The notes below the pieces were generated by a model. That model did not search any database and had not been told where the DNA came from. It saw only the letters and a list, made by a program, of their open reading frames with translations. This document shows positions 14,833 through 32,886 of a stretch of 64,000 nucleotides of DNA, in pieces. This DNA is from Halorubrum cibi (GTDB taxonomy: Archaea > Halobacteriota > Halobacteria > Halobacteriales > Haloferacaceae). Made by a program: the position numbers and the translations under genes. The stretch covers positions 1 to 64,000 of the forward strand of contig NZ_FXTD01000010.1 of assembly GCF_900182635.1 (NCBI RefSeq), read 5' to 3'. Numbering within the stretch: position 1 is the stretch's first letter; each line of letters begins with the position of its first letter.

Positions 14833-14926
14833 TCACTCCCGGTCGTCGTCGGACCAATCGCACTCCTGGCACTTGTATCCGGTCACGAACTCCGTGACGC
14901 TGGGCATGTACCCGACGCTGATGACG
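14833..14926 (-). pseudogene. displaced 3' fragment of the DUF5795 gene
   Basis: Read on minus it encodes VISVGYMPSVTEFVTGYKCQ followed by ECDWSDDDRE and a stop. This is the C-terminal third of the protein encoded intact at 32659-32886. It has no start and lacks the N-terminal CxxC pair. It sits beside tRNA-Trp, presumably the original position, and was separated from the rest of its gene when the 17.8-kb element integrated. Confidence 0.9.
14860..14926. repeat. attL: left 67-bp direct repeat of integrative element
   Basis: The 67 bases are identical to 32689-32755 except for G at 14917 against A at 32746. The repeat lies within the coding sequence of DUF5795. Base composition drops on its right side. 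With the integrase next to the other copy, these are the attachment sites of one element. Confidence 0.92.
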
Positions 14927-15345
14927 GCAAGTACTGAGCAGCGCGCAACCGGTTGACTGCTCGCACGCGACAAGTACCAGTTTGCCCATAGGAGGCACTC
15001 TAGCACCTGATTTAGGGCTAGTTTCGTCGCAAGCCCTCTCGCGATCGGGTCGACACTGCTGGCTAACCACGTCTACGAACAGTGAGAGTAGGTCTATAAA
15101 ACGTCGCGGTGATGGCTAAACCTACAGTTACGAACTACTAGTCAAATACGTTTAATTGAACGAACAGCAGAGAAAACACGGGGTGGTCATTATCGCGGTA
15201 TAATCAATTGTAGATAATTCGACTAATCTAAGCCAACAGTGACTAATCTAGTTGGCGAATGTCTCATTGGTTCCGTGATGATATTAGAACTGCCATAGGT
15301 GTAGAACGATGTTCAGACAGATCTTGGTTGACGTGATGTCGACAA
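14927..15345. other. A/T-rich tract inside attL without a supported gene
   Basis: About 420 nt between attL and the HEPN gene. Open frames are short and have no family signal. TATA-like strings (gtctataaaac near 15093, tttaattg near 15150) could be promoters. Nothing else recognisable. Confidence 0.4.
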
Positions 15346-16329
15346 TTAGGTTTCACCGTCGATCTCGTCCTGTATTTCGCTAAGTTCCCTTAAATTCGCT
15401 CTATGCTCAGAGAGTACGGAGAAAATAAAGAGAGACTGGGCAGCACAACGAGCTTCAACCGCAAGGTCACGAACCTCTGAGTAAGAGAATACCTCGTCCT
15501 CTCCACCAACAGCCAATTGAACTGTTTCCTCAATCGGGTCGATGAAGTAGTCGTCGTGAGTAATTGCGTTCCTACGGTCATTATCAATTGCTTCCGCAAA
15601 GACCTTGATTCGGTCCCTAGTTCGACACATGTCGACGAGGTTATGTAGATTATCGTTCAGCCGGTTATCTAGTTCCCCATCACCAGTCTTGATGACGTTC
15701 ACGCTGTAAATAATGAAAGGCGAGAGAGTTTTGAATTGCTCACAGTAGTCTTCGTACATCCCGAGATATTCCTCTACAGTCGAACTATTTTCGACTTCTG
15801 GATTTCCAAAAATATACCATAAGTCACTATCGTAGCGAGCGAACATCCGTTGTTCCTTTTTCTCTCCAATCTTTTCCCAGCCCTCTCGGATGGTGTTGAG
15901 ATAGTCTCGGTAGTCTTCCTGCTCTATCAGTTCATCAGCGACATTCTCAACAGTATCAAAGTATTGGGGATAGCCAAATGATTCTCCTTCTGCCCTGAAT
16001 TTGCTGAGTTTGGAGTCTATCTGCTCAAAGATTACTTCTAACCCTTCTAACGAATCTAAATCTGACGTATTTAACCCCAACGCTCGAGCAGCAGTTTCGT
16101 TATATTTCTCAAGGAGGAATTGGATTGCTTCCTCCTCGTCTGGGTCAGACTGTTGGAAGGATCTCAGTTCAGTAAGAATCCCTTTCGTCTTCTCTTTAGC
16201 AGATTCCATGTCTGAATCATCGATATCCTCCGAAAAGTTTTGTCCGAATGTTTTAGAGATGATATTTATTACTTCCTCAGTCATCTCCTCTGCTAGGTTA
16301 TCGGGATCAAACTCGGCAGAATCCGTCAT
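15346..16329 (-). CDS. HEPN-like putative defence protein
   Basis: 327 residues from the ATG at 16329; an ATG nine bases upstream is an alternative start. The protein is helical and acidic. Near residues 253-260 RRNAITHDDYF carries the Rx4H signature of HEPN RNases (R-NAIT-H), followed by a helix with EARCAAQSLFIF. HEPN proteins cleave RNA in toxin-antitoxin and abortive-infection systems. The N-terminal 200 residues have no recognised fold and may be a sensor. It stands alone, divergent from the replication genes, at the left end of the element. Confidence 0.6.
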   Translation of the reverse strand: MTDSAEFDPDNLAEEMTEEVINIISKTFGQNFSEDIDDSDMESAKEKTKGILTELRSFQQSDPDEEEAIQFLLEKYNETAARALGLNTSDLDSLEGLEVIFEQIDSKLSKFRAEGESFGYPQYFDTVENVADELIEQEDYRDYLNTIREGWEKIGEKKEQRMFARYDSDLWYIFGNPEVENSSTVEEYLGMYEDYCEQFKTLSPFIIYSVNVIKTGDGELDNRLNDNLHNLVDMCRTRDRIKVFAEAIDNDRRNAITHDDYFIDPIEETVQLAVGGEDEVFSYSEVRDLAVEARCAAQSLFIFSVLSEHRANLRELSEIQDEIDGET

Positions 16330-17102
16330 ATGAACCATGTAAGGTTTTGCGCTACAGGTACTAATCAATAGGCCCGGTTGGCTGCCGAGGTGTCTGGCCA
16401 ATAAGCCTTGGATGAACCTATTAATATCCTCGTTCCTGATGAAAATACCAACCAACTGAGTTCGACTGACCGGACAGCAGAGAGAACACGGAGGGGGTTT
16501 ACTACGATACAGTCAATCGTACACAACTCATCCACTTCTTCGTCAACGAAGAATGAGACACTCCAACAACAGAAACCCAGACCAATTAACAGTTCTCTGG
16601 AACACTTGCTAACTAAGCAACGAACAATTATCATCTTGCGTCAAATCTGGTTCCACATCGAACTACTATTCGTTCGAACCTTCCATCACAACTCCCTCCA
16701 CTCTATACTATGCCCATCGTAGGTTTGGACTGTACAGCGCTACTCACGAATCGGCCGATCCTATAGCAAAGTAGCTCAAATTTTCTGAGACAACCACCCC
16801 CATCGCGAGTAGCACCCCATTTGCGACTATTTAAAAAAAAAATGGTCGAGCAAAACTCCGTTAGCGCTTTTGTCGAAACGGTTTTGTTGAAGCGAGTGTA
16901 TGTTCGAGTGTACTCAATACCTGACTCGGTAGTGGTTCAGTTCAGGTACTGTCGCATGTGTCGCGCTGCTCAGACAACTGTGCTCGCTCCGAACCCAGTA
17001 GTCTACTCTAGGCTCAGATATGAGCTGAATACCAGACTCGAGTAGAATCGACTGGGTCTACAGTCGAGTTAGGACAGTGTCAGCAGGTGGCCATGTGGCA
17101 AT
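16330..17102. other. gene-free A/T-rich spacer
   Basis: About 770 nt between divergent genes. Short frames (for example 16821-17045) lack any protein-like composition. The low GC content and the position upstream of PrimPol make it a possible control or origin region, but no repeats like those at 20 and 28 kb are seen. Confidence 0.35.
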
Positions 17103-17735
17103 ATGAAAGAGCAAATCGATACAGTATCAAGAGTACCGAACAATAACTCTCCCACCCAGACGGATGGTGCCAACGGTATCAGACCCTATCACGAGGAACC
17201 ATTCGGGGGGCAACGAGACGACTGGGCCACCTACAACCACGCAGACGTCAGGTATAATGGTAAAAGATGGGACCAGACCTCAAGCAGTGAAGGAGTCTAC
17301 GGCAGTTCTGCTCGAACAACATTCAGGTCATTTGAGGCTCCGAGTTCAGACGAACAAAAATATGATGACCTGTGGACACTACAGATGGGTTTCGGTCAAA
17401 CCTACGAGGATGGACGAAATAAAAACCGAGTCCGAGATGATACAACCTGGAAGCTCTGTGATGCTGTCCTCCAACAGTGTGAGGTTCCTGATCGGGAGCG
17501 CTATACAGCTCTTCGCAATGTGCTTCAGCGCGATCTACAGGGATTCAGTAGCCACTACAGTGGCGCTGACGGAGCCTGTGTAGGGTTCGCTCTCATGGAG
17601 CTATGTGACTGCCCAGAAGCAGCCGAAGACTGTTGGGTGGCAGACAAAGCTGTGGATATCCTCCCTGGCTTTGACCGACAAAATGTAGAGGCGCTAATTG
17701 ACTACGTGTTCGACGACGAAAGGGAGTACAATTGA
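17103..17735 (+). CDS. hypothetical protein coupled to PrimPol
   Basis: 210 residues. The N-terminal ~95 residues look disordered (Asn/Ser/Gly-rich). The C-terminal part is helical, with RVRDDTTWKLCDAVLQQC and DRERYTALRNVLQRDLQGF. Its last codon overlaps the PrimPol start (TTGATG), so the pair are co-translated. It could be a replication accessory or DNA-binding protein. No family recognised. Confidence 0.65.
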   Translation: MKEQIDTVSRVPNNNSPTQTDGANGIRPYHEEPFGGQRDDWATYNHADVRYNGKRWDQTSSSEGVYGSSARTTFRSFEAPSSDEQKYDDLWTLQMGFGQTYEDGRNKNRVRDDTTWKLCDAVLQQCEVPDRERYTALRNVLQRDLQGFSSHYSGADGACVGFALMELCDCPEAAEDCWVADKAVDILPGFDRQNVEALIDYVFDDEREYN

Positions 17736-18691
17736 TGTGGGAATCTGAATCGGCGAGAGAACACGGTGTGGGGTCTGTCCCGGAACCCCTTCGTGAGCGA
17801 GCTCAGTGGATAGTCACGAAGGACAAAGCCCCAATCCAGCCGAGCAACGGATGGAATCTGCCAGAAAATCAACTACCGATAGATGAGGTACTAAAACTAT
17901 CCAAACAGTTCGTTGGAGAACCAGCGTACGTGCTCCAACCAGATGATCCATTTGTGATTGTCGACCTCGACGATGTCGTTCCCGAAGGCTCGTCCAGAGT
18001 CACTCATGAGGCTGAAAGGATCGTTCAGGACCTACGCACCTACACTGAGTGGAGCAGGTCGGGTGAGGGCCTACATTTGATCGCTGAAGGGGAACGTTCC
18101 CTTGAACGAGGTGAAAAAGGAACTCTGGACGACGTTGGTGAGATCGAGATCTACGACCGTGATCAGTTTGTCGTGTTGACTGGGGATCGATCCAACCCTA
18201 CTGAGAGGAGCGCAGGTGAACATGGTATTCGAGATGATATTGAAGAAGTCATAGCCAACCTCGAGCGTGAGTATCTACCCAGGCGAACAGAATCAGGTGG
18301 ATCTGATGAGTCTGTCTCCACAGATCTAGACTCGGCATCTGGCAATTCTACTGGCATCAGTGTGGAGGACATCCGGCGCACAATCGAGGAGTACGCAAAA
18401 AGTGGCTACGCTAAGGCGAAGCGGGTGTTGGACCGGTGGGACTCTCCTGCTAGTTCGAGCGCCGGCCTATCATCTCCGTCAGAAGCAGATCTTGGCTTCG
18501 CCTCCGACCTCGCGTTCTGGTGTAGAGAGGACCCACAATTGATAGACGACTGCTTCCGCCAATCGAATCGAATCCGACCCAAGTGGGATGAAACTCACTA
18601 CTCGGATGGGCGGACCTATGGAGATGTCACTATCCAGAAAGCAATCAAAACGAACGGTAGTACGTTCTCAGGTCATTATGTGGTAGGATAG
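17732..18691 (+). CDS. PrimPol-type primase/polymerase
   Basis: 319 residues. The N-terminal half has the archaeo-eukaryotic primase layout: FVIVDLDDV (catalytic acidic pair, about residue 72), then SRSGEGLHLIAEG with the conserved His, then EIEIYDRDQFVVLTGD. The C-terminal part (DLAFWCREDPQLIDDCFRQS and YGDVTIQKAI) matches the helix bundle of NrS-1-like phage/plasmid primases. It would start and perhaps extend replication of the element. No SF3/D5 helicase domain is fused and none is encoded nearby, so a host helicase must be recruited. Confidence 0.82.
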   Translation: MMWESESAREHGVGSVPEPLRERAQWIVTKDKAPIQPSNGWNLPENQLPIDEVLKLSKQFVGEPAYVLQPDDPFVIVDLDDVVPEGSSRVTHEAERIVQDLRTYTEWSRSGEGLHLIAEGERSLERGEKGTLDDVGEIEIYDRDQFVVLTGDRSNPTERSAGEHGIRDDIEEVIANLEREYLPRRTESGGSDESVSTDLDSASGNSTGISVEDIRRTIEEYAKSGYAKAKRVLDRWDSPASSSAGLSSPSEADLGFASDLAFWCREDPQLIDDCFRQSNRIRPKWDETHYSDGRTYGDVTIQKAIKTNGSTFSGHYVVG

Positions 18692-18831
18692 TAGTCAGAC
18701 TAAGCTGGGTCTTCCCTACTCATACCCCTGTTAAAATCCTCAGACACTAGTGATTTGGCGAATTCTTTCTGAATACAGCATACGTAGTTAGCAGTAGAAA
18801 GAATTGTAATAATGGGTTTTAATTCTCAAAT

Positions 18832-19449
18832 ATGACCAGCTCATTTTCAGATAAACATCACCGACTGTATCGATGGTTCTTTGAAGAATATAATAAACAA
18901 TATATAAACTATGAGAAATATTACGAAGCATCTGAACATTATCGGTGGAGAGCCAAACAGGTTCGATGGGGGACGGGAATTCTAAGCTCCCTAATCATTA
19001 TTATTGTATTGACGATCGTACAGGGGTTTTATCAAAACATTCTCACACCAGTTGTAGTCGGCTTATCACTACTTACAGGTGTGATATCTTTAATCGGTTC
19101 AATTGGCGATTTCGAAAGGAAATATATAATCTACTATAATTCGGGGCAAGAACATGATGATCTCTATAGTGAATTTGATAACATGATCAAAGTAAGGCTG
19201 CCAGATCCGAGTGCCGATTTTGACGAACTAAAAGAGGAGTGTGATAGACTGGTAGAGGAGAAAGATGAATTGAATGGATTAACTCCACAACTAGAAGAGC
19301 GCTGGTATAATAAGATGGTAGAAGAGAGGGGGGAAGATGCCGTTCATTGGGATCCTCAACCGCTTGAAAAAATGCGAGAAGCGAAATTCAAGCCAGATTC
19401 GGAAGAGACCGAGTCCAATTCAAAAGAAACCGAGACTACGTCTGAATAA
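18832..19449 (+). CDS. SLATT-like two-TM protein, putative defence effector
   Basis: 205 residues. An N-terminal amphipathic helix (HRLYRWFFEEYNKQYINYEK) is followed by two TM helices at about 44-66 and 72-92 and a long charged cytoplasmic tail with coiled-coil character. This matches SLATT proteins, pore-type effectors of nucleotide-signal or abortive-infection systems. Codons are A/T-rich. No cyclase, SLOG or reverse-transcriptase partner is adjacent, so its trigger is unknown. Confidence 0.7.
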   Translation: MTSSFSDKHHRLYRWFFEEYNKQYINYEKYYEASEHYRWRAKQVRWGTGILSSLIIIIVLTIVQGFYQNILTPVVVGLSLLTGVISLIGSIGDFERKYIIYYNSGQEHDDLYSEFDNMIKVRLPDPSADFDELKEECDRLVEEKDELNGLTPQLEERWYNKMVEERGEDAVHWDPQPLEKMREAKFKPDSEETESNSKETETTSE

Positions 19450-20010
19450 ATCCTCTGTATTCAGTAACCAGTACCTATTAGCCTCTGAATATTATCACGT
19501 GGCCATCTCTGTATTGTCTTAAACTCCTACAGTGCGCATAGTATGTATTGAGGGGAGTTGGTCAAGGTACGTTCTCATTGTGTCGTAGCTGGTAACTATA
19601 CGAACTCTCCTAATAAACTGGAATTGACCTTTTGTCCTTCAGCTACTCGTATTCTATTGACTGATTGATGGTCTGTTGTCGTCTACTATTTGTACATTTC
19701 TAATTGCTGAAACCGAACTTGAATATGTAGTGTACGACTGTTTGTGCGATATCAACCCCCACCGTGTTTTCTCTGCTTCCTTGAAGGTACCATTGTGAGA
19801 TCAGTTAACCCGACTTAGAACCATTCACAGTCGTACCAAGCCCTTCGCAAATACTCAGCTGCTATTTTAAACAGTTAGTAAATTCTTATAGAAATGAATC
19901 CTTCCGCGCGTGTACGCGAGGCTCCATGTGTTTGTTACAGTATTCTCATTTTGAGCTCATGGAATTGACTAAAACGTACACATAGAAGCCTCTATTACGT
20001 TCTGGAAGGC

Positions 20011-20205
20011 TTCATTGGTCTTACTGGACCCGGCTCGGCACAGCTCACCAGTATCTCGACCGAGGGCTCCATGCTGGACCCCAACTACGCAGTCTGGGAT
20101 ATCGACGACAAGGCAGACTCAAGAGTCACCACCGAGATCGATGCTCGTCGACACATCTAGCAGGCGATTTAGCACCTGATGGAAGTTGGCTACATCGACT
20201 TACAC
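20011..20205 (+). pseudogene. broken coding remnant with two in-frame stops
   Basis: One plus frame reads protein-like (SMLDPNYAVWDIDDKADSRV, then TTEIDARRHI), then a TAG, QAI, another TAG, then HLMEVGYIDL. The helix-turn flavour before the stops suggests a degraded wHTH protein. GC content is higher than the surroundings. The reading runs straight into the first repeat of the cluster. Parent family not identified. Confidence 0.45.
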
Positions 20206-20989
20206 ACCACTTTGCGAGTGTCTTCTATAGCAGAGTTTGGGATCATCGAAGTCAGGGGTGAGCTACGTGAGGTGGAACACACCACTTTTCCGCAATTTGA
20301 ACGCGGAACACGGCTGTTTTCGGGTGGCAGACACCACTTTTCCGTAATTACTATGACGTACCGTTAGCGGAACCAACTGTAATCTCGGGATTCTAACTAC
20401 CCCACACCACTCTTCCGCAATTACTTGTTCCCTGATCAGGGATCGCATCATCCGCATCTTTGTCTGTCTCACCATCTGCGAATGAGAACACACCACTTTG
20501 CGAGTGTTCTTATCGCGATCTACGGGAGATGTAACCCCCCATTTCCGCATAATTACACGTGACGTAACCCCCTGTTTCCGCATAAATTCGCAGGACATAA
20601 GCGCGGTATCGTTAGTTTCCACGGATCAGCTCGACTGATAACCCACTTAATCTCAGGTGGACACACACCCCCCGTTTCCGCATAATCCTCTACGAACTAT
20701 TTCTAGATTGCTAGGTACATGGACCTCCTCGCCGACTAACTGCTCGCTTGGGGATCAGTTGCTGAGAGAATCCACTTGCTAAGGATACCCTCGACACCGC
20801 TATTGCCTCCGCCTGTCGTTCAATGCCAGCAGGTGCCACCAGATGTCCTCACAGCTAGTCGGAGGACAGCTCCTGCTATACACTTGTTTGCGTCAAACGC
20901 AATTCCCCGTGAGTCGGTGCCGACAAAGTACTGATTTCCACATTTACGAGCACTTCAGGTGGCTAGAACACCGTTCTTCCGCAATTGTT
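20204..20989. repeat. repeat cluster A: at least nine degenerate 17-29-bp units
   Basis: Three related classes occur. Class 1, ACACCACTTTGCGAGTG: 20204 and 20485-20510. Class 2, ACACCACTTTTCCGYAATTA: 20279, 20331, 20404 and a variant at 20967. Class 3, ACCCCCTGTTTCCGCATAAT: 20531, 20564 and 20665. Spacing is irregular (about 30-280 bp). The 20485 unit forms a perfect AGAACAC/GTGTTCT stem. The class-3 core (CCCCx-GTTTCC) recalls the reverse complement of haloarchaeal ORB half-sites. Not a CRISPR: unit length, spacing and sequence vary. Confidence 0.75.
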
Positions 20990-21151
20990 CAAACTACCAA
21001 TAGTAGGATCTTACTCTAGCACGATTAGATGACCCCAGCTGTACAGGTGAGCCCTTCACAGAGTAGGACGAATGCTACAGTCTTTGTCACAGCTGGTTCT
21101 CACAGGGATAAATCAAGTAGTGGGGCACGTCGATCAGAGAGGCCGTAGTGC

Positions 21152-21274
21152 CTAGTTGGGGTCGACACGGTACTCCTTCGGGATCCCCAATTGTAGAAAC
21201 TTCTTCAGCAACCGAGTGCTGGCGACGTCGGCCTCACTGGCGTGTGCCAATTCGGGGCCGACCGACCTAGTCAC
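21152..21274 (-). pseudogene. C-terminal remnant of an unknown gene
   Basis: A 40-residue minus frame, possibly from a GTG, ends RLLKKFLQLGIPKEYRVDPN. Composition and helix pattern are clearly protein-like and more GC-rich than the flanks, but nothing upstream in frame continues it. Either a tiny gene or, more likely, the tail of a decayed one. Confidence 0.4.
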
Positions 21275-21639
21275 TACCTACATCAGCTGGTGCTGGTCAT
21301 TCTAGATGGCATTCTTGTCATAATCATATACATAACGGGTGGAACAGATGACAATCAGCCGTGATGAATTACGTTTAACGAAATCCCTCAGGATTGATTT
21401 TTGACTCAGGACAGAACTCCGCTGAGGCAGAGTTGGGGCGACTCTCACCAGATTCGGTTCAAATAAGCACACAGTAGGCATCGACAGACAGCTGTTCGCC
21501 TGAGTTGAGTACTAATCAGTATCTGTCATGTTGGAGGACATTAAGTAGGCTACAACCCCAGAAATCACCATCTTTACCTACCCTACAAGTAGTCTACCAA
21601 TTGACCATCGCTTGGAAACTACAAAGTACAGTTACATCC

Positions 21640-21704
21640 CTAGATATATACAGCAGTTACCGCTACTGTGTTGTGTTGGACTGCGGTGCTGACTGTATAT
21701 CTAG
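21640..21704. repeat. inverted repeat with ~40-nt loop
   Basis: CTAGATATATACAG (21640-21653) faces CTGTATATCTAG (21693-21704), 12 pairing bases with one 2-base bulge. No gene spans it. It could be a recombination end, an operator pair or an RNA stem. Confidence 0.45.
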
Positions 21705-22571
21705 CGTCACATATGCTGTCTCGACACTGCTGAGCTGTTGCTAGTGCTGTTGTCGAGATCGACTTGGTCAGGAGAGCTATTAGCCAGCCGTAGGAATCAA
21801 ATCATCACAGATTCGACACAGACAATGCTGGCGTCGTTTCTAACAGCTTCCAGTTGGTGGGAAAGTTGCTGATTTCTTCGAAATCTAAAGCCAATAGGAG
21901 GCCACTCACACGCCTCTGTATAGAACTATAATTCTCTGAATTGGAATCATATACAGTTAGGATTAGTTGAGATCCCGTGAGAGGTATCACGAGACGTCGC
22001 ACAGCTCTCCGAGTCACCTACCACTCTGACGGGGTGCGGAGTCGCTTAGGACGGACAGTGGATACCACAGAATCGATCCTGACTGATGGGCCGATGATGT
22101 TTCCAGTTGAAGGTCTATTTACAAGGGACTGTAGCCACACTCTGGACACCAATAAAAAAAATACCAGCTTCAATAATTCTCATACTACTATATTACTTAC
22201 ACTTTTTAGTTTTTATCACTATTAGTATATAATTTGCTGGTTCTAACGGTGTGGGCTTGTCTGTGACGCAAGTACGACTGTTACGTGACTGATGACCCGG
22301 TTAGAGGTACAGACCCGGTTTTTCTAAGATTGGTTTCGAGACGGTTCCGTGCCTGTAGATCGCGAGACAGCCCCAGTGCCACACATCGATACTGACGTGT
22401 CGTCACACTGCTTTAGCTTGCGCCGACGTCGTCGACGAGTGGGGATACTCTACGTTGAGGTCGCAGTCAACAGGCACAGCTGTAAGTGTGTATCGACAGA
22501 TGACGCCTGTTGGACATATTGGTTGGAACTTGTACCTGCTGGGCGAAAAAAACGCTGTTGGAGGGACTGCC

Positions 22572-25500
22572 TTACTGTGCTGCTAACTCGTCGAACTTCT
22601 TGAGCACGAGATCGAAGTACTCGTTTGTCATAACCCTCGGACTTCGGACCTTGTGGAAGTCTTCCAGTATAAACTGGGTCTGGGTGTGATCGAACCCATA
22701 CGCATGGAACATCGCTGCGTCAATCTCTGCCTGTAATATTTTTCTCTTTGAACTACTGGATACGAGGTTAATACCAAGGCTCTCCCTAATCTCTTGGAAT
22801 TCCTCACCGTAACAATTCAGTTTGGCCGATCGGCTCCACACAGGTTCGAACCATTCGTCACCCTCTGTCAATCGGGGTGCTTGACATTCTTCAAACATAT
22901 TCATGCTAAGGCTCGTGTCTAGCTTTGTACGAACGATATAATCGAATGGGATACTGTTCAGTATACCAAGAACAGCAAATAGTTCCTTGTCTGTGAAAAT
23001 TCGATCGTAGACTCCGTGGGCCGGACTCTCCTTTAGATCCTCTTCAGATGGGTTAATCTCGTAGGGCCGGATCGTCGGGCACTTGTTATGTGTGACAATC
23101 CCCGGTGGGAGAACAGCAGCGATGGCACTTCTTTCGTTGGTGTTGTTCGCAATTTGTCTTATACCAATTCGGTACGCTGAGCAGTCTAATAGCACATCGT
23201 CTTTGGAGAACTCGCTCCCGCGGTGTTTCTTGAATAAATCATCGAGATAGTCTGTTTGTACCCCAGAACCATCGAACGAATGGTAGATGGCAGATTTCAG
23301 GCTGCGGAAATTCTTGTTACGAATACGTCTTTTTGCGCTCTTGTCAGGATTGGCGTCTTCGTCTACACTCCATAATGTGGGAGCTGAGAGATTGTCCCAG
23401 AATGTGTTGTCCCAGCTGTACTGCCAGATATTCCCTCCGCCATACACCGGATAGTCACCTTTGTCACGATCTTCAATAAACCGATCAGAGTCTCGAGTCC
23501 GATTGAGTTCTTCTTTGTAGAGGTCAATATACCACCCTGGTGTCGATTGATCGTTGATTGGGGGCTGCTCAACTATCTTCTCTAATAGCGGAACTTCCTC
23601 TTTTCTCGTGATTTGTGGATAAATCGCTGTCCGTGGGGAGTAATCTCGTAAGACTTGAACAGGGACAGCAAATGTTTGCTCCTCAATATTCTGTAGGACG
23701 TCAGTATCCCTGTTTAAGAACTTACAATGAAGTTGCTCCGTATTGCCTGAGTTTTTGAATGTTACAATGCCAAATTTATATCGATCGTCAATTCCAGAGA
23801 ATATTCCCTTATTCTCAAACCCGACTATATGTCCAACTTCTGTATCTGTAAGTAGATGATTCCGTAGATCTTTTGCTCCAGTCCCAGTAAACAACTTTCC
23901 TGGGAGTAATTTTGCGGTGTATCCTTGTTCATCTGTAAGAGAGAAGATCCGTTCAAGGAACAGCATCGATAAGTCTGGGCGAGCTTGCCCCCCTACATCT
24001 GGGCTTTGTAGTTTGTACGACTGGCTTTTTTTGAAATACGATACTAAGATTTCACGGCGACGCTGGTGCTCTATCCATCCCTTCGCAATATCCTGATCCT
24101 TGAGCAATTTCCGCTGTTCCTCATTCTTTTCCTCTAGAATACGTGTCCGGAATAACGGATCGTAGCTTGAGAAGAAATCTTCTCTGTTTGACATTAAGAC
24201 TTCCCACGGCGGGTTGCCAACTACGACGTCGAACCCGCCGTGAGCATAGACTTCAGCGAACTCCAGAATCCAATGGAACGTATCAAACTCATCTATGTCG
24301 CTTTTTGTGATCCCGGTGGCAAGATCATCATCAATTGCCTCAAATATCTCAGAATCCACTTCTTCGCCGTAATCGTCGCGTAAAGTATCTGAATTTATAC
24401 TAACGTCTAAGTCGAGAAATTCATCATAGATTAGTGAATCTAACTCAGGCCGATACTCCTCCAATAAATCGTGGGCCTTCTGATAATGCTCATCAGCACG
24501 TTCCGATAGCCCCTGTTCTCCTGCCTTCTCGTACTTGTTTATTTGTTCAATCACATCCTGATAGCGCGATCGCACACTATCCTCATTAAATGCCTCAAGT
24601 GTGTAGCCTCCATCGTCAGTCGACTCAGGGAATGTTGTGAATCCGATCAGACTGTTTCCAGTCCGAAGATTAAAAGCGATATTAGGAAGCGCGAGCTCGG
24701 CCGTATCGAGGGTATCAATCTCGTCTTTAGATAACTCAGCAACTATTGATAGCCAACAGCGGAGTTTTCCAATTTCAACTGCTGGGCCAACAATATCCAC
24801 CCCGTAGATGTTGTTCTGGACAGTCGTCTTTTTGAGCCGGAATCGGCTCGGATGTGAGTCCATCTGGGTATACAGTGCGGTACGAATCGAAACGATCTCC
24901 TCTAACACGGAGGTGAGGTAGTGCCCACTTCCACAGGCAGGATCCACAACGTAGAATTCGTCAACAACGTCCACAAGTAGACCATTAATAAGCGAATTTT
25001 TCGGTGCGAGATCGTTGATTAGTTCATACACAGTCTCACTCTGCTGTACTTCTGCTTCTGGCCATCCACGTTCTTCAATCAGATATTCTTGGAAACGTTC
25101 GTGGAGTGCTGGCTGAACAGTCTGTTCAGCAGAGAACCGTGTGATTTCACTCGGAGTGTAATAGGCACCCAATTGCTTGTTTTGATCGCCAGATTCGGTT
25201 GTGAGGTAGTTAATCGTCTTTTCAAAGACAGAACCCAATACGCTTGGGTCAATATCCATCGGTCCCCCATCAGCGGAGAATTGGTAGCGCTCCAGTAGGT
25301 TGATAATTGATTTGAGAACGCTGTCTCGAACGTCGAACTGGCGCTCATCGACCTCGGTATCAGTACTGAGCTCTGGACGGAATAAGCCACCATTGAGATA
25401 CGGGATGTCTGAATATAGCTCGATTACATCCGTTCGTTTTCCGTCCTCCCGCTCGGGCTTGACGTTCATAACGTCATAGAAGAGCGGATCGAGGAACGTG

Positions 25501-26516
25501 TTGTACATCGACTGGGGGTAAACCCCATCCTCGTACGTGTCCACAATCGTGCGCAGTAAGTCGGTACGAACGATGCGCTTGTCCTCCAAGAACTTGATAA
25601 AGATGAGCCGATTCATTAATTCGACAGAAAACAGGCGTGTGTCGTCACCAGTTGCCTCGGTCGGTGGGACGACACCGTCGCCGACAAGACTCCGAGCTCG
25701 TCGTTCCCCGTCAACGTCGTTCTCGTCGACGCCGAAGACATATCGAATGTAATCGTCGTAGAATTCATCCGTAATTTCCTCTTGCTTCTCTTTGAGCACT
25801 TCCTGTGCGTCGTCGATAATCGAGCGGAAATTGTCGAAATTAAAGGTGCGAATGAGCTCAGCGATGACCTCGCGCTGCTCTTTGGAGACCGCGTCTGTGG
25901 GGGACTCCGACACCCCCGTTTGGTTCTCGAATAGCGTCAGAAAAACGGGTTGAAGATCGACATCAGCAACAGTGGTGTGTGTGTACGAATCAGCATCATA
26001 TCGGATGAAGATCCATCGAAGTCCGTCCGTCGCAAAGCCGAAATCAGACTCGAACTCACGCTGGCTTAACCACGACTTCACTTGATCGACACCGTGTCCC
26101 CGGTTTTCGAGTTGCTTTTTGAGGGGTTCTGCCTCAATCAGTAGCCGAGTTGAGTCGACGCTGTCGATGTCACGGAGTGATACGGCGTAATCTGCCTGTT
26201 CGCCACGAGTAGAAGAGAAGTCACCAGCCTCAGCTCCGTAGTCAGAGTACCCAAGTACCTCGAGCAATGGCTCGATGACCCGATCCTGCGTTAGCGGTTC
26301 CGGGTCAAGCTGATCCCGTGTATAGTCCGATCGGGGGACGTATTCGCCTCGTCCCCGAGAGAACGTCTTATCGAGATCGTCATCATCCGTATACTGATCG
26401 CGAAGACTGCGGATACACGAGTCGATAGTGTTGATTACAATATCGACATCGTCGTCTGAGACCGTGGTGTCAAACTCATCAAAATCAAACTCAGTCTGTG
26501 CGTCGGAGGCCGACAT
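22572..26516 (-). CDS. type IIG restriction-modification enzyme (Eco57I-like)
   Basis: 1314 residues. The N-terminal domain has the HsdR_N-like layout (DYAVSLRD ... LLIEAEPLKKQL ... VKSWLSQREFE). The middle holds the adenine methyltransferase: GAYYTPSEITRF, motif I VVDPACGSGHYLTSVLEE (about residue 522) and motif IV VVGNPPWEVL (about 767). The C-terminal ~450 residues would be the target-recognition domain. One chain would methylate and cut DNA at the same site. The expected E-x-K of the nuclease reads E128-A-E130, a possible loss of cutting. BREX PglX-like enzymes are an alternative, but no BREX genes are present. Confidence 0.85.
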   Translation of the reverse strand: MSASDAQTEFDFDEFDTTVSDDDVDIVINTIDSCIRSLRDQYTDDDDLDKTFSRGRGEYVPRSDYTRDQLDPEPLTQDRVIEPLLEVLGYSDYGAEAGDFSSTRGEQADYAVSLRDIDSVDSTRLLIEAEPLKKQLENRGHGVDQVKSWLSQREFESDFGFATDGLRWIFIRYDADSYTHTTVADVDLQPVFLTLFENQTGVSESPTDAVSKEQREVIAELIRTFNFDNFRSIIDDAQEVLKEKQEEITDEFYDDYIRYVFGVDENDVDGERRARSLVGDGVVPPTEATGDDTRLFSVELMNRLIFIKFLEDKRIVRTDLLRTIVDTYEDGVYPQSMYNTFLDPLFYDVMNVKPEREDGKRTDVIELYSDIPYLNGGLFRPELSTDTEVDERQFDVRDSVLKSIINLLERYQFSADGGPMDIDPSVLGSVFEKTINYLTTESGDQNKQLGAYYTPSEITRFSAEQTVQPALHERFQEYLIEERGWPEAEVQQSETVYELINDLAPKNSLINGLLVDVVDEFYVVDPACGSGHYLTSVLEEIVSIRTALYTQMDSHPSRFRLKKTTVQNNIYGVDIVGPAVEIGKLRCWLSIVAELSKDEIDTLDTAELALPNIAFNLRTGNSLIGFTTFPESTDDGGYTLEAFNEDSVRSRYQDVIEQINKYEKAGEQGLSERADEHYQKAHDLLEEYRPELDSLIYDEFLDLDVSINSDTLRDDYGEEVDSEIFEAIDDDLATGITKSDIDEFDTFHWILEFAEVYAHGGFDVVVGNPPWEVLMSNREDFFSSYDPLFRTRILEEKNEEQRKLLKDQDIAKGWIEHQRRREILVSYFKKSQSYKLQSPDVGGQARPDLSMLFLERIFSLTDEQGYTAKLLPGKLFTGTGAKDLRNHLLTDTEVGHIVGFENKGIFSGIDDRYKFGIVTFKNSGNTEQLHCKFLNRDTDVLQNIEEQTFAVPVQVLRDYSPRTAIYPQITRKEEVPLLEKIVEQPPINDQSTPGWYIDLYKEELNRTRDSDRFIEDRDKGDYPVYGGGNIWQYSWDNTFWDNLSAPTLWSVDEDANPDKSAKRRIRNKNFRSLKSAIYHSFDGSGVQTDYLDDLFKKHRGSEFSKDDVLLDCSAYRIGIRQIANNTNERSAIAAVLPPGIVTHNKCPTIRPYEINPSEEDLKESPAHGVYDRIFTDKELFAVLGILNSIPFDYIVRTKLDTSLSMNMFEECQAPRLTEGDEWFEPVWSRSAKLNCYGEEFQEIRESLGINLVSSSSKRKILQAEIDAAMFHAYGFDHTQTQFILEDFHKVRSPRVMTNEYFDLVLKKFDELAAQ

Positions 26517-26705
26517 TGATCACGGCTTTCGCGCCCGACGACATGAAAGTGTGTGTACGTATCTACACTGTCATCGGAAACGTGGTGTTGGGCATTTGTT
26601 CAGATAGAGCGATGGGTGGTGGTAAAGACGCTCCGTCACCCACCGACTGAATACGCGAGTGATGTGAGCCGATACAAACATGAGTTCACATACAAATAAT
26701 AACGC

Positions 26706-27494
26706 ATGACTGTCTCTGCTGACGAAGTTGACGAATATATTGACGAACTAGACAGCCTCGCTGAGGACGTCATCGAGAACACAGAGTCGTTCTTTGAGAG
26801 CATGGAGGCAGAACACAACACTGGTAAAAATGGGCTATACATTGGAGGGTGGCAGACTCCGACGACAGATCAGAAAGAGTCCCAACGAGAGATACTTGAA
26901 ACATATCATGAGTGGTATGCTAGTTCTCGTGTGCTAGTCAAGGAGTATATGGAAACAGAGCTGGAAGATTTCGAGCGATTACGAGATAACTTCGACGAAC
27001 TCATCAGGTTACAGATTAGTCCAGACAGTATTTCTGGTATGGGTGTGTATAGCACAATACATGATGTAATCGTGACTCAACGTGGCATCGTGAATGCGAT
27101 ACCACGGAAAATCAGTGCTGAGCGATTCAAAGTCAAAGAGCAGATCTCGAAGTCTGTCGCAAAAGACGAGGTAAAGCGAGCACGAGACTTGCTTCAAGAG
27201 GGACTCCCTCGAGCAAGTGGAGTCACAGCCGGCGTTTCGCTTGAACGCCACTTATTAACCATGTGCCAGGAGACAGACGTCAAGCTCGAGTACAACTATG
27301 ACGATGGGATCAGAAAACTCGCAGACACCCTCTACAAATCTGATGTCATCGAACAGACGACACTCAGTTCGTTGAAAACGCTGTCATCTATCCGCAACGA
27401 CTGCGCCCATGCGAATCAAACAGCCCCGAACGAACACAAAGTGAAACGGCTGATCGAGGACACGGATGACTACATTCGGGGACGAGGAATATAG
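26706..27494 (+). CDS. HEPN/DUF4145-like protein
   Basis: 262 residues, wholly helical. The C-terminal domain has SGVTAGVSLERHLLTMCQ followed by SSIRNDCAHANQTAP, an Rx4H HEPN signature (R-NDCA-H, about residue 230), and a final helix. The N-terminal 150 residues form an acidic helical region. Divergent from the type IIG gene with a 190-nt spacer. HEPN proteins beside restriction enzymes often act as back-up RNases or sensors. Catalysis is inferred from the motif only. Confidence 0.62.
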   Translation: MTVSADEVDEYIDELDSLAEDVIENTESFFESMEAEHNTGKNGLYIGGWQTPTTDQKESQREILETYHEWYASSRVLVKEYMETELEDFERLRDNFDELIRLQISPDSISGMGVYSTIHDVIVTQRGIVNAIPRKISAERFKVKEQISKSVAKDEVKRARDLLQEGLPRASGVTAGVSLERHLLTMCQETDVKLEYNYDDGIRKLADTLYKSDVIEQTTLSSLKTLSSIRNDCAHANQTAPNEHKVKRLIEDTDDYIRGRGI

Positions 27495-27619
27495 CGCTAA
27501 GCACGGACCCGCGGTTGACACAGGTGTGTGTTGATGAAGTACACGTATCCTGAAAAGATATACTGTCAGTGCGACAGGCCCTGTCGGACTCGTACAGGTG
27601 GATAACATCGCGCCTGAGC

Positions 27620-27660
27620 TATAACAGCAACTTTCGTTGTCGCAGGCGACTAACGTGGAT
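27620..27660 (-). repeat. copy 1 of a duplicated CDNE coding remnant
   Basis: About 35 bases centred on TTCGTTGTCGCAGGCGAC align with 28840-28880 (TTCGTTGTCACAGGCGAC). On minus they encode LVACDNESCCYSSG and IVACDNEYYCYEFG respectively. Changes preserve the Cys-Asp-Asn-Glu core, as expected of two related small genes now decaying. Confidence 0.4.
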
Positions 27661-27779
27661 CGGCGGTCCGGCGAGAGGCTTGCGGTAATTATCCGGGTAT
27701 ACAACGACACGCCGAGCTGTGGGCGTTAATGTCGGGCTCGAACGGGTGACTGGTGGGATGTCTCTCAGGTTTGTGCGAA

Positions 27780-27801
27780 GAGGCGGAGTCCAATCCGCCT
27801 C
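27780..27801. terminator. hairpin downstream of HEPN gene
   Basis: GAGGCGGA, 6-nt loop, TCCGCCTC: eight perfect pairs, GC-rich in an A/T-rich tract, about 290 nt after the HEPN stop. It is followed by taagtgtta rather than a T-run, so intrinsic termination is uncertain. Confidence 0.35.
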
Positions 27802-27985
27802 TAAGTGTTACGTCCAAACGAGCGTAGATGTTGAGCAACTCGTTTAGAGTGCCGTCGAACTGACGGCATCTACTGGTTAGCTATATATTGGCATAAATGC
27901 TTTTATTTTACTCACATATTTCATTTTGTGACTATTAGTTGATCGAATAAGTATTAATTGTCCCGGAACCATATGCGTCAGTAGA

Positions 27986-28690
27986 CAACTCCATTTGCGA
28001 GTGTTGACCGCCTTTGCGAGTGTTTCGAGTGTTTCGAGTGTTGTTGTTCCTTTATATAACACCCACACCCCACTTTGCGAGTGTTACAAGTCAGTATCCA
28101 ATTGAGAGATACACCACTTTTCCGTAATTACTCTGGCACACTGTGTTGTTTGAACCAACCCGCATTTACACCACATTTCCGTAATTACTGCGACGCACCG
28201 CGTTGATGAATCAAGTAGGGATTTTCCACCCGCGATCTCCACATAATTTCGGGTGATGTAACCCCCTGTTTCCGCATAATCAACACACTATCATACGTGG
28301 AATGAGTTAGAATCAGATTCCCAACATCCACATGGATTCTTCAGTACAACTGAGCCGACGTCAACTGCGAGCGTCTAGGTGGGATTAACCAACGTAGGAG
28401 TAGAGGCAGATACCATGTTGGTTAATCTCAACTGATGAGCAGACACACACCACCGGTTCCGCAACTTCCGCAAAGTAGCTCTTTTATATGTTGATCAACC
28501 CCCTATTTCCGCATAAATTCGCAGTACGTGAGTGAGGAATCTCCGATTTTGACGGTTGACTCAATAGACATCATATCCAATCTCGAGTGAACCCACATCT
28601 TTCGAGTGGTGACCACCGTTTCAACTGTTTCATGTGTTTCGAGTGTCTGATTCTGGTTATAAGCATCCACACACTACTTTGCGAGTGTTA
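27986..28690. repeat. repeat cluster B: about ten degenerate units related to cluster A
   Basis: Class 1 (TTTGCGAGTGTT): 27986, 28008, 28057-28086 (TAACAC/GTGTTA stem) and 28669. Class 2 (ACACCAC-TTTCCGTAATTACT): 28111 and 28168. Class 3 (ACCCCCTGTTTCCGCATAAT): 28258, 28495 and weaker copies at 28226 and 28447. The unit at 28495 shares an extension, CATAAATTCGCAG, with the one at 20564. A GTGTTTCGA microrepeat runs through 28020-28043. Clusters A and B flank the type IIG/HEPN genes. Confidence 0.75.
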
Positions 28691-28839
28691 GAACACGGTT
28701 CACCACCATTCCACGATTGCGCTCGGTACACATAGGCGACGTCGATCACGGATATCTGGGTGAAATTAACTGACGTAGGGAGACGAGCTTTCATGTTTTG
28801 ATGAGGAGCAGCACGCTACGCCCCAAGACCCCGAACTCG

Positions 28840-28880
28840 TAACAGTAGTATTCGTTGTCACAGGCGACAATGGAGATGAA
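28840..28880 (-). repeat. copy 2 of the duplicated CDNE coding remnant
   Basis: Partner of 27620-27660; on minus it encodes VACDNEYYCYEF. It lies at the right end of cluster B, so the two remnants bracket the repeat cluster. Confidence 0.4.
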
Positions 28881-29112
28881 CGGTCCATCAGAGGATTGCT
28901 GAAGATTGTCTGCTGGCGTACCCACGACAGGCAGAGATGCGGGAGTCTCTGGTGTAGGACAAAACAATTCCTGTCTAAACGGCAATCGGATGACTCCCCC
29001 TACACGTCGATTCAATAGGCCATTCCAATTCTCGCTCTTAGCTAAATACAAGCAGTATTTGCTCCATATACGCTAATAGTCATCATTATGGTTTATTTAT
29101 CGTCAGATATGA

Positions 29113-30828
29113 ATGACACATATGCCCAGCGGAATCGGACTTTCTGCGACGGAAGACACTGTGGAACAAGTCTTGACTCGGAACTATCGATATACCGTCC
29201 CTGACTACCAACGTCGATATTCTTGGGAGGAAGAACAGTGGGCAGCCCTATGGGCGGATCTGAATTCAATTCAAGAGAATTCCACACATTTCCTAGGTTC
29301 TGTCGTCCTCATTGAGCGCTCGGGAGGACTTAATGAGTTGAACAAACTGGAGATCGTTGACGGCCAACAACGAATTGCGACGATTACTGTCGTTCTCTCT
29401 TTGATGAGAGAAAAATACTATGAGATGGGAGAATCTGAGCAGGCGGAGGATATTGAGAACAAGTATCTCAAGAAGAGGGATCTCGATCGGAATGAGTATC
29501 AAAACCTCACGCTCAGTACTTTCGATAATCCGGACCTCAAGAAAGTGATTGAGCGTGATTATAATAAGATGGATGATGGGCAACTACGGGAAGCTGTCCA
29601 ATTCTACGTTAAAAAGTTGGAGAGCCTTGATGTCGACAAACTTGATACACTCAGAAAACGCCTTCTTGCCTCAGTTACGCTCGTGTCAATTCGATGTGAG
29701 GGCGAACAGTCAGCTTTCCGCCTCTTTGAGACATTAAACGATCGTGGGATGGAACTGTCGTCCGTCGATCTCATGAAGAACTACACCTTCAGCAAAGCAG
29801 CGAGCGCCTCAGATTCCGAGATTAGTTACGAGAAAATCCAGGAGGACTGGGAGCGACTCATCAAGACACTCATGCCGAATATGAGCCAACCGAGCCGGTT
29901 CTTCCGTCACTACATAATGTCCGCGGCCGAACCAGACTACGATGGCGATGTATCCGACTACAAACTCTATGACGAGTACCAGAAAATAGTCGACTCGAAA
30001 CTCCCTGATTCGGGAATATCTCTGAACGAGTACGTCGAGGAACTAGCTGACAAAGCAGAACTCTATGCGAAAATACTCAATCACGAGATTGACATGTATG
30101 ATGACGATGGGAACGAAGCAATCAATTCCAAACTCGAAGACTTAGAGATCATCAATTCGGTACAGGCTCGAACATTGATGCTACGCGTCTTTGAGGAGTA
30201 TGGCACTGCGAACAAGGTGATGGAGAGCCTGTTACTACTGGAGAGTTTCCTGATGCGTTGGAAGGTATCGAGTTACCCCACTGGAGGTGAACTCGATCGG
30301 ATCTACTCTCGAATCTGTTCTGAGGCGTTTGAGAAGGACAACTCTATCCGAGAAATATACAATGGCTTGTCCGACCGATGCCCCAGTGACGAGGAGTTCG
30401 TCGCTTCTATTGAAAACAAGCGGGTTAGGCTAAACGATCGGACGAATTACATTCTCAGTCGTCTTGAGATGGACTATTATAACGGTATAGAGCTGAATTT
30501 CGATGAACTCGATCGCGAACACATCGCTCCGCGAGCATCATTCACGGCTAAGAAGTACAGTGCGTGGCCCTCTACCCTAGGTACAACTGAAGCCCAATTC
30601 GAGCAATTCCGCGACAAGCTTGGCAATCTTACTCTACTTGAAACAGATAAGAACATCTCAATCGGTGCCGATCCATTCGAGAAAAAGAAAGAGGCATACG
30701 CAGAGTCAAAACTAAAAATGAATCAGCAGCTGTGTGAGGATTACGATAGTTGGGGAACTGATGAAATAGAACAGCGAACGTCTGAATTGGCTAATGCGAT
30801 GGTTCAAATCTGGAACTTAGATAGCTGA
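29113..30828 (+). CDS. DUF262/DUF1524 (GmrSD-like) putative type IV restriction protein
   Basis: 571 residues; the second ATG at 29122 fits a leaderless start about 25 nt after the TATA-like TTTATTTATC. The N-terminal DUF262 shows VPDYQRRYSWEEEQ, FLGSVVLIE and EIVDGQQRIATI (ParB-like NTPase). The C-terminal DUF1524 HNH region has ELDREHIAPRASF and GNLTLLETDKNISIGADPF. GmrSD and SspE proteins of this build cut modified phage DNA using NTP. It stands alone between cluster B and the integrase, so it is probably a self-contained modification-dependent nuclease. Confidence 0.85.
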   Translation: MTHMPSGIGLSATEDTVEQVLTRNYRYTVPDYQRRYSWEEEQWAALWADLNSIQENSTHFLGSVVLIERSGGLNELNKLEIVDGQQRIATITVVLSLMREKYYEMGESEQAEDIENKYLKKRDLDRNEYQNLTLSTFDNPDLKKVIERDYNKMDDGQLREAVQFYVKKLESLDVDKLDTLRKRLLASVTLVSIRCEGEQSAFRLFETLNDRGMELSSVDLMKNYTFSKAASASDSEISYEKIQEDWERLIKTLMPNMSQPSRFFRHYIMSAAEPDYDGDVSDYKLYDEYQKIVDSKLPDSGISLNEYVEELADKAELYAKILNHEIDMYDDDGNEAINSKLEDLEIINSVQARTLMLRVFEEYGTANKVMESLLLLESFLMRWKVSSYPTGGELDRIYSRICSEAFEKDNSIREIYNGLSDRCPSDEEFVASIENKRVRLNDRTNYILSRLEMDYYNGIELNFDELDREHIAPRASFTAKKYSAWPSTLGTTEAQFEQFRDKLGNLTLLETDKNISIGADPFEKKKEAYAESKLKMNQQLCEDYDSWGTDEIEQRTSELANAMVQIWNLDS

Positions 30829-31417
30829 AGTCGACGTTGGACGAGACAAATATTCGTGGGGCGGTCAAAGAGTGAGGATAGCTCGATACTGTGCCGAAGG
30901 TATCGAGATGGGTAGATGCTTTTTGTGGAAATTGTTTTACGACAATCAGTTCTGTCAGCTGTCGCAGTCGTGCCGAGTTGTTGCGGATTATCTTGCTGGA
31001 GTATGCTGTCCACGACATGCGGAGCTGTATCGTCGTTGATATCGAATCATACTGATCAAATTAACCAACAGAACTGCTCTGTGTCTTTTTCGTTGGTTAA
31101 TTACATATTCACAGCTATTAACTACCGATAACAACTAAACGGAAGTCTGGATCAGACGATTCATCACTTGGTTCAGAACCGTCGAGTAGCCTCCCACGCA
31201 GTATCTTGAATATCCAACAGATTTGTGCTGTCGTGCGCGCCAACTTTGAGCTAGATGCCACACCTGAGAAGGTTCCACTCGGTCACCAAACGAACTCCGT
31301 CCTCAAACACGCCGGTTCCAGGTCGATCATGTCGTTATCATTGGTCTATACAACTCAAGAGGACCCTCTTCAAAGGGACCCACTGAACTATTATAGCGAT
31401 CTGGTTCCTGAGAATAC
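30829..31417. other. gene-free spacer before integrase
   Basis: About 590 nt. Short frames (30916-31131, 31206-31466) lack usable starts or protein-like composition. No repeats of the A/B type. Possibly downstream control DNA. Confidence 0.35.
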
Positions 31418-32524
31418 CTATCCAATCTTGTCTAGCGCATCACGTCGTCGCTCCGGAGGGCTCTGATCGTACACTGCGGTCGTCTCTATGTTCTTATGCC
31501 GAAGTTGATCCCGAGCAGTACTCAGGTCTGCCTCGTCGATTAGACCAGTTGCGAGCCCACGACGGATCGAGTACCATGTCACCTGCCTATTTTCAGTCGC
31601 AATACCTGCTGTCTCGCAGAGCTGATCAATAAGGTATGACAGTGAACGAGAGTTATACGGGTTCCCTTTCGTGGTCATCCAGAGCGTTTCACTGTCGTCG
31701 TACATCGGTATTGAGGAGCGCTGATCGAGCCAGCGCTCTAGGATCGTCGCAGTACGCTCACTGATGACCGGATCCCAAGCCTCGTTACTCTTCGAGGACT
31801 CGGCTTGCGGGATACGCAATGTACAGGCACTCGTGTCTGCCCAGTGAGTTTTAGCACGGTTGACCTCAATTGGTCGGAGGCCGGTGTCGAGTGAAACGAA
31901 GACCAGCGAAGCGATCTTCCACCCGTTTGCCCGTTCCCAGTGCTCTAGGCCAATATCTTCTTTCGGCACGTTGAATCGGCGCGCGAGGAATCCCTTATAG
32001 CGATCTCGTTCTGTGGGGGTACAGCTGTTGTAGTTTGGGATCGAACCGTACTCAAGTGACGCATCACGTAGCCGGGTACGCTCATCTTTTGTCAGATAGT
32101 CTCTCGACGTCGACGTGCCACTGCCAGACGAGAATGTGAGCTCGGGCTCCCACGGTTCCATGTCGAAAGCGTGTTCTCGCCACCTGAACAGGGTCTTGAG
32201 CGACTTGTGGATGTGCGCTTTTGTCGTGTCCGCATAGTCTGTGAGAGCAATCTCTCGGAGATAGGTGTCGGCATCGTCATGAGTCACCGAAGTTGTGTAG
32301 CCTCGATCTTCCCAGATGGATTGGTAGAATGTGTTCACACGGTAGTGACGGACATTCATCGTTGACTCCGAGTAGCCTGTGCTGGTTTCAGGTGACTTAC
32401 CTTGTGTGAGACACCAGGTGAGGAACTTCCCGCGGTGATGCTTGTAGTCCTCCACCTGTCGTTGGTTGAGAGTCGATTCAGTTCCGTTGGGAATCAGTGG
32501 GATCCCCTTGATGTTATCACTCAT
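31418..32524 (-). CDS. tyrosine recombinase / integrase (XerC-like)
   Basis: 368 residues from the ATG at 32524. The N-terminal SAM-like core-binding domain (about 25-140) is followed by the catalytic domain with LDTGLRPIEV (Arg), TWYSIRRG (Tyr-x-x-Arg in place of His-x-x-Arg, as I recall for many haloarchaeal integrases), LRHKNIETTAVYD (His and the nucleophile Tyr). It lies 165 nt from attR and reads away from it. It integrates and excises the 17.8-kb element at the DUF5795 gene. Confidence 0.92.
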   Translation of the reverse strand: MSDNIKGIPLIPNGTESTLNQRQVEDYKHHRGKFLTWCLTQGKSPETSTGYSESTMNVRHYRVNTFYQSIWEDRGYTTSVTHDDADTYLREIALTDYADTTKAHIHKSLKTLFRWREHAFDMEPWEPELTFSSGSGTSTSRDYLTKDERTRLRDASLEYGSIPNYNSCTPTERDRYKGFLARRFNVPKEDIGLEHWERANGWKIASLVFVSLDTGLRPIEVNRAKTHWADTSACTLRIPQAESSKSNEAWDPVISERTATILERWLDQRSSIPMYDDSETLWMTTKGNPYNSRSLSYLIDQLCETAGIATENRQVTWYSIRRGLATGLIDEADLSTARDQLRHKNIETTAVYDQSPPERRRDALDKIG

Positions 32525-32658
32525 TTGTCTACTGGCGCGCAAAATATCCAAAATCACGGGACTGCGACGGGTTTCCCGAAACTTGGAGTTCGTAACTGGC
32601 TCTGTACGCGGTGCTGTGGTCGCACCAGCAGAAGGCCAAAATACGTCGGTATTAGGCC
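32525..32658. promoter_or_regulatory. integrase upstream region
   Basis: 134 nt between the integrase start and the DUF5795 stop. It holds the A/T stretches (aaaatatccaaaat near 32539) expected of an integrase promoter. It would form part of the circular junction after excision. Confidence 0.35.
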
Positions 32659-32886
32659 CTATTCGTCCCGATCTGTAGTTTTCCAGGAGCACTCCTGGCA
32701 CTTGTATCCGGTCACGAACTCCGTGACGCTGGGCATGTACCCGACACTGATGACGTCGCCGCCGCAGTCGGGACACTCGCGGTCGGCGTCGGCGATGTCC
32801 TCGGCTTCGAGGACCGACTCGCCCTCCACCAGTTCCGCGAGCGTTTCCGGTGTCACCATCCGCCCCTGCACGACGCGATTTGACAT
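32659..32886 (-). CDS. DUF5795-family small zinc protein, C-terminus supplied by element
   Basis: 75 residues. CPDCGGDVISVGYMPSVTEF, then YKCQECSW: two CxxC pairs of a zinc ribbon, preceded by a helix (TPETLAELVEGESVLEAED). Conserved in haloarchaea next to DUF5794; function unknown. The attR repeat covers codons for VISV to QEC, so the last residues (SWKTTDRDE) come from the integrated element, while the original end (DWSDDDRE) is stranded at 14833. Confidence 0.85.
   Translation of the reverse strand: MSNRVVQGRMVTPETLAELVEGESVLEAEDIADADRECPDCGGDVISVGYMPSVTEFVTGYKCQECSWKTTDRDE
32689..32755. repeat. attR: right 67-bp direct repeat
   Basis: Matches 14860-14926 with one mismatch. It lies inside the intact DUF5795 gene, 165 nt from the integrase start. 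To its right the sequence is GC-rich chromosome. Confidence 0.92.

Follow-up and report, generated by a model that had tools for sequence, protein, structure and literature searches.

Putative ORB-type box arrays on an orc-less integrated element of Halorubrum cibi, one of them at an origin-like locus

The window analysed here is a stretch of 64,000 nucleotides from contig C10 of the 3.18 Mb genome of Halorubrum cibi. It carries an integrated element bounded by att-like direct repeats of 67 bp that are 98.5% identical (14860-14926 and 32689-32755), and this element coincides with a low-GC island at 15-32 kb (Table 1). In Halorubrum halophilum B8 (G003; NZ_BBJP01000022.1), which belongs to the same genus, both flanks of the element are contiguous near 67.2-69.1 kb of contig C82, as expected of an empty site. 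Besides its integrase, the element encodes a primpol-like replication protein, a type IIG restriction-modification (RM) gene, a HEPN-like gene and a GmrSD-type gene. No viral-contig relatives were found for the integrase, the primpol or the neighbouring protein. Moreover, tblastn with nine orc proteins over the window, the searched G003 stretch and loci L150 and L151 revealed no orc1/cdc6 gene in the element. Note that in genome G026, which carries a related element, the att core occurs twice on contig C68 (L225; 7-73 and 3827-3893, about 3.8 kb apart), which suggests that another insert may use the same integration site.

Two fields of short repeats, clusters A and B, are located in extended non-coding parts of the element (19450-22571 and 27495-29112, respectively), and the first of these leaves more than 3 kb around and beyond cluster A without a long ORF. 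The repeats are real and well beyond chance. Compared with dinucleotide shuffles, the C1 box CACTTTGCGAGTGTT (up to 2 mismatches) occurred at 6 sites in the 64 kb against 0.04 expected, the C2 box CACTTTTCCGCAATTAC (up to 3 mismatches) at 5 against 0.08, and the C3 box ACCCCCTGTTTCCGCATAAT (up to 3 mismatches) at 5 against 0.00. The + strand carries every one of these sites, and each falls within 20.2-20.7 or 27.99-28.69 kb; a candidate additional box of cluster A lies at 20967. As the earlier note on this DNA had proposed, each of the three classes is found in both clusters, and the extended tail is indeed common to A and B, as a 19-nt exact match (TTTCCGCATAAATTCGCAG) at 20575 and 28506. Two other exact stretches, each of 22 nt, are the longest that the clusters have in common, and the C3-C3 step is 33 nt in both (52 bp at 85%). 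The same note described B as a mirror of A, which is the wrong geometry: since all boxes are on the + strand, B is a direct repeat of A, with a similar class order (C1-C2-C2-C3-C3). A CRISPR-like array was considered and rejected, since that would be a single repeat at regular spacing and the boxes belong to three classes with irregular start-to-start steps of about 33-237 nt.

Table 1. Features of the integrated element and of its two repeat clusters (positions in the window)
Feature	Position	Strand	Details
Integrated element holding A and B	14860..32755		17.9 kb, 67-bp att-like direct repeats
Primpol-like replication protein	17732..18691	+	NrS-1 HBD domain
Cluster A	20202..20687	+	C1 20202, C2 20278, C2 20330, C2 20403, C1 20488, C3 20533, C3 20566 (with tail), C3 20666
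Type IIG RM gene	22572..26516	-	1314 aa
HEPN-like gene	26706..27494	+	262 aa; RNDCAH motif; weak Pfam match below cut-off
Three-inverted-repeat (hairpin) block	27746..27904	+	left of cluster B; conserved in three elements
AT-rich stretch	27900..27999		GC 33%; between hairpin block and first boxes
Cluster B	27986..28693	+	about 11 boxes in 705 bp, intergenic
Composite unit B1 (putative ORB)	27995..28089	+	TTTGCGAGTGTTTCGAGTGTTTCGAGTGTT - TTTATATA - CACCCACACCCCACTTTGCGAGTGTT
C2 box	28110..28131	+	TACACCACTTTTCCGTAATTAC
C2 box	28167..28188	+	TACACCACATTTCCGTAATTAC
C3 pair	28228..28281	+	33 nt apart; first degenerate, second AACCCCCTGTTTCCGCATAATC
Inverted repeat within cluster B	28377..28433	+	GGTGGGATTAACCAAC / GTTGGTTAATCTC; fold z -3.44
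Degenerate C2-like box	28445..28467	+	ACACACCACCGGTTCCGCAACTT; found in G035 too
C3 box with extended tail	28497..28524	+	AACCCCCTATTTCCGCATAAATTCGCAG
Composite unit B2 (putative ORB)	28600..28693	+	orientation as B1
GmrSD-type (type IV restriction) gene	29113..30828	+	right of B
Tyrosine integrase	31418..32776	-	

Cluster B contains two composite units of about 95 bp, B1 and B2, which are 77% identical and had gone unnamed in the earlier note. An AT-rich stretch is present on its left side only, preceded by a block of three inverted repeats (AGAGGCGGA../..TCCGCCTCT, AAACGAG../..CTCGTTT and TGCCGTC../..GACGGCA). Among the 20 sources searched, this block is restricted to three B loci, those of the window, of G003 and of a further genome, G035. 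It may form RNA or DNA hairpins; the three sequences have two compensatory changes, no better than shuffles, so an RNA is not claimed. An Rfam search of 14.8-33.0 kb gave no match, and folding of the C2 stretches as RNA showed nothing remarkable. A direct repeat of about 109 bp (71%) flanks cluster B, at 27622-27726 and 28840-28946, and its right copy is partly inside a spacer common to G026.

The likely identity of the boxes came from their occurrence beside orc genes. When 146 relatives were searched with the C1 pattern, the sole other genome matched was G085, at three places within 1.8 kb. There, the C1 boxes are arranged as an inverted pair around an AT-rich centre and are each accompanied by TTTCGAGTGT; an Orc1/Cdc6 gene, whose product has Cdc6 lid and winged-helix domains, follows directly downstream. 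The plasmid Orc closest to the G085 protein is that of Haloarcula sp. JP-L23 plasmid unnamed5 (56% identity), that of Natronococcus occultus SP4 plasmid 2 is also close (47%), and both plasmids have the same inverted box type beside orc. In support of this, the composite units of B match, spacing included, orc-adjacent ORB units of several genomes, most of which are inverted pairs. In an alignment of ten units (B1, B2, G129 and G367 included) TTTGC-AGTGTT is invariant, the upstream part is common, and the spacing and a TATA-like stretch are the same. When the entire B region was used as an unbiased query, orc-adjacent units were again recovered, in G085, G129 and G097.

We compared the boxes with the 29 nearest Orc loci, G085 left out, using 200 shuffled boxes as the reference. 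C1 had a mean best mismatch of 5.72, against 7.23 +/- 0.22 for the shuffled boxes, none of which (0/200) was as good; the C4 boxes were likewise closer than all 200. At the same loci C3 was not enriched and C2 only slightly; such a dependence on class would be expected were each class paired with a different Orc. Outside the window genome, C3 matches were found in 2 of 392 genomes, each time adjoining orc genes. In G263, a short AT-rich stretch is flanked by C3-type boxes in opposite orientations, and G057 has three direct copies downstream of an orc that has different boxes of its own. In H. cibi itself, three direct GGAAAC boxes, one of them the exact C3 core CGGAAACAGGGGGT, lie downstream of the orc gene on contig C12. 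Note that this own-genome region (L162; 13869-14390) also carries two more ORB-like repeats and a 33-bp tandem repeat, and resembles an oriC2D-type region.

For C2, no orc-adjacent counterpart was found and the box was seen only in this element family; in a search of 84,980 genomes, H. halophilum was the sole archaeal match. The C2 and C3 18/19-mers are absent from IMG/VR (a 14-mer IMG/VR scan was discarded, as so short a query matches by chance), and blastn gave no plasmid match for either cluster and no phage match for B. Taken as sequence matches, these results give good support to C1/C4 as putative ORBs and fair support to C3, while C2 would be an ORB by architecture alone. There is good support for a hint in the earlier note, namely that the boxes would be bound by Orc1/Cdc6 proteins of the host type, since C1/C4 units and C3-type boxes adjoin orc genes elsewhere.

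Related elements differ in what they carry. In G003, the element comprises the primpol, the RM gene (77%), cluster A and the hairpin block, with one C1 box where B would be; it lacks HEPN, in whose place another ORF is found, and an AriA/GajA-like ATPase occupies the GmrSD position. In G035 the order is RM and HEPN, further genes, the hairpin block and then boxes C1, C1, C2-like and C3, all on the + strand, and cluster A was not found within 407-452 kb of the contig. The element of G026 is split over contigs; its primpol is 74% identical, CCACTTTGCGAGTGT is absent, cluster A has no match, and GmrSD, whose immediate left neighbour is a BREX/DISARM-like helicase, has no B beside it. On contig C45 of this genome (L223; 2222-9275), the BREX/DISARM-like methylase and helicase genes directly left of GmrSD indicate that cargo has turned over at this position. 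Thus, A and B have been gained and lost separately, and the B locus, a hairpin block followed by a C1-first array, is kept in G003 and G035 while the cargo changes. Cluster A is 89% identical to G003 over 280 bp, compared with 38-65% in its flanks and 77-78% in the element genes. This identity, which in the core (20278-20530) includes the spacers, may thus be due to a recent exchange and not to selection acting on the boxes.

These comparisons bear on the earlier proposal that the clusters bracket the RM-HEPN pair as a nested cassette, which would have been moved or exchanged by recombination between them. A and B do stand on either side of the pair, as direct repeats with up to 22 nt in exact match, and the replacement of HEPN in G003 would suit such an exchange. 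However, G035, with the pair and B but without A in 407-452 kb of its contig, largely refutes this proposal and shows that the two repeat fields do not accompany the module everywhere; G003, with A, RM and one B box but no HEPN, also speaks against it, as does G026, in which GmrSD has no adjacent B. No case of recombination between the two clusters and no fused A/B junction was observed; among the relatives, G003 and G035 showed no exchange or deletion between the repeat fields, the G026 element being split over contigs. Moreover, the A boxes are 1.9 kb from the boundary of the pair. Since A and B are kept and lost independently, they are not the marks of an intervening cassette, and we regard the proposal as very improbable. 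Control of the module by the same factor from both sides, also suggested, fits the gene layout poorly, because RM and HEPN are divergent, with their start region at 26517-26705, and both clusters are situated past the 3' ends of these genes.

Another possibility could be that the arrays are decaying origins of plasmids that fused with the element, in which orc was lost and the boxes are now idle. The degenerate boxes at 28228 and 28445, the missing orc, the long non-coding stretches around A and B and the shrinkage of the B array to one box in G003 would all be consistent with decay. Against it, the identity of A to H. halophilum is above that of flanks and genes, although recent exchange could also explain this, and the position and first box of the B locus are kept in three elements. 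We consider decay unlikely. About equally unlikely, in our view, is that the boxes are iterons for an initiator or regulator encoded by the element, such as the primpol or the small neighbouring protein, with an ORB likeness inherited from an ancestral plasmid origin. The element does encode a primpol-like protein and no orc, and C2 is known only from this family; but C1/C4 and C3 match orc-adjacent sites with the same unit spacing and TATA-like stretch, and G026, in spite of its similar primpol, has neither CCACTTTGCGAGTGT nor a match to cluster A.

The explanation that we favour, and hold to be probable though by no means assured, is that A and B are ORB-type arrays on an orc-less, integrated plasmid-like element, and that B is not a cassette end but an ori-like locus using Orc in trans. 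B would then be a conserved locus made of the hairpin block, the AT-rich stretch and a one-directional array with a C1-type box always first. Most likely, it would bind Orc1/Cdc6 supplied in trans by the host or by co-resident plasmids. Such binding might help the excised element to replicate with its own primpol; alternatively, it might tie up the initiator, as proposed for the ORB-rich oriC2D of Haloarcula hispanica. The boxes, their agreement with orc-adjacent ORB units and the conserved surroundings of B are observed; binding of Orc in trans, with either replication aid or titration as the outcome, we infer from a layout that is origin-like yet lacks orc and inverted boxes, and from oriC2D as the nearest described arrangement. 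Several observations count against this explanation: all boxes point in one direction without an inverted partner, C2 lacks an orc-adjacent counterpart, and the B array of G003 is one box. In addition, the own-genome Orc closest to the C1-type protein shows no more than 40% identity to it and has another ORB, so that this host may lack the trans factor for C1; no close C1-type Orc is present in the assembly, although the cell itself could have one. The C1 sites may thus serve the Orc of a co-resident plasmid, or none at present. A further and distinctly unlikely variant is that the mixed-class arrays serve as a sponge for initiators. By binding the Orc1/Cdc6 of incoming plasmids that belong to several incompatibility types, they would block the establishment of these plasmids and form a DNA-only defence beside the restriction genes. 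A host lacking the C1-type Orc would then be expected rather than puzzling.

Compared with known systems, the arrays are closest in sequence to the ori-cdc6 plasmid origins of haloarchaea (JP-L23/N. occultus type; Wu et al. 2012, PMC3528665), with the same composite ORB core, spacing and TATA-like stretch, and the C3 boxes of A and B carry a C/G-string like haloarchaeal ORBs. In contrast to these origins, the boxes have one orientation, each array holds several ORB classes, and neither the window nor the G003 element stretch has a directly adjacent orc1/cdc6; matches to orc-adjacent ORBs exist for C1/C4 and C3, not for C2. With no orc and no inverted boxes, B is not a canonical ori-cdc6 origin, despite its origin-like layout. 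Like the iteron arrays of plasmid Rep systems, A and B are clustered direct repeats beside an AT-rich stretch, but they comprise three classes instead of one repeated unit, and their matches lead to Orc origins and not to a Rep gene. To our knowledge, haloarchaeal origins have so far been predicted only where ORBs adjoin an orc gene. Orc-less mobile elements with mixed ORB arrays would be missed by such orc-based surveys; they would replicate on borrowed initiators or drain them, and draining, if true, would amount to plasmid exclusion by sequence alone in archaea. Finally, oriC2D of H. hispanica, with its 11 ORBs in 722 bp, lacks origin activity and was proposed to titrate Cdc6E (Wu et al. 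2014, PMC3936714). B resembles it as a dense, intergenic cluster of about 11 ORB-like boxes in some 700 bp, separate from an origin. Unlike B, oriC2D adjoins an origin and its own cdc6E, the gene that it controls and that lies directly upstream of it, whereas B belongs to an orc-less mobile element and mixes its box classes.
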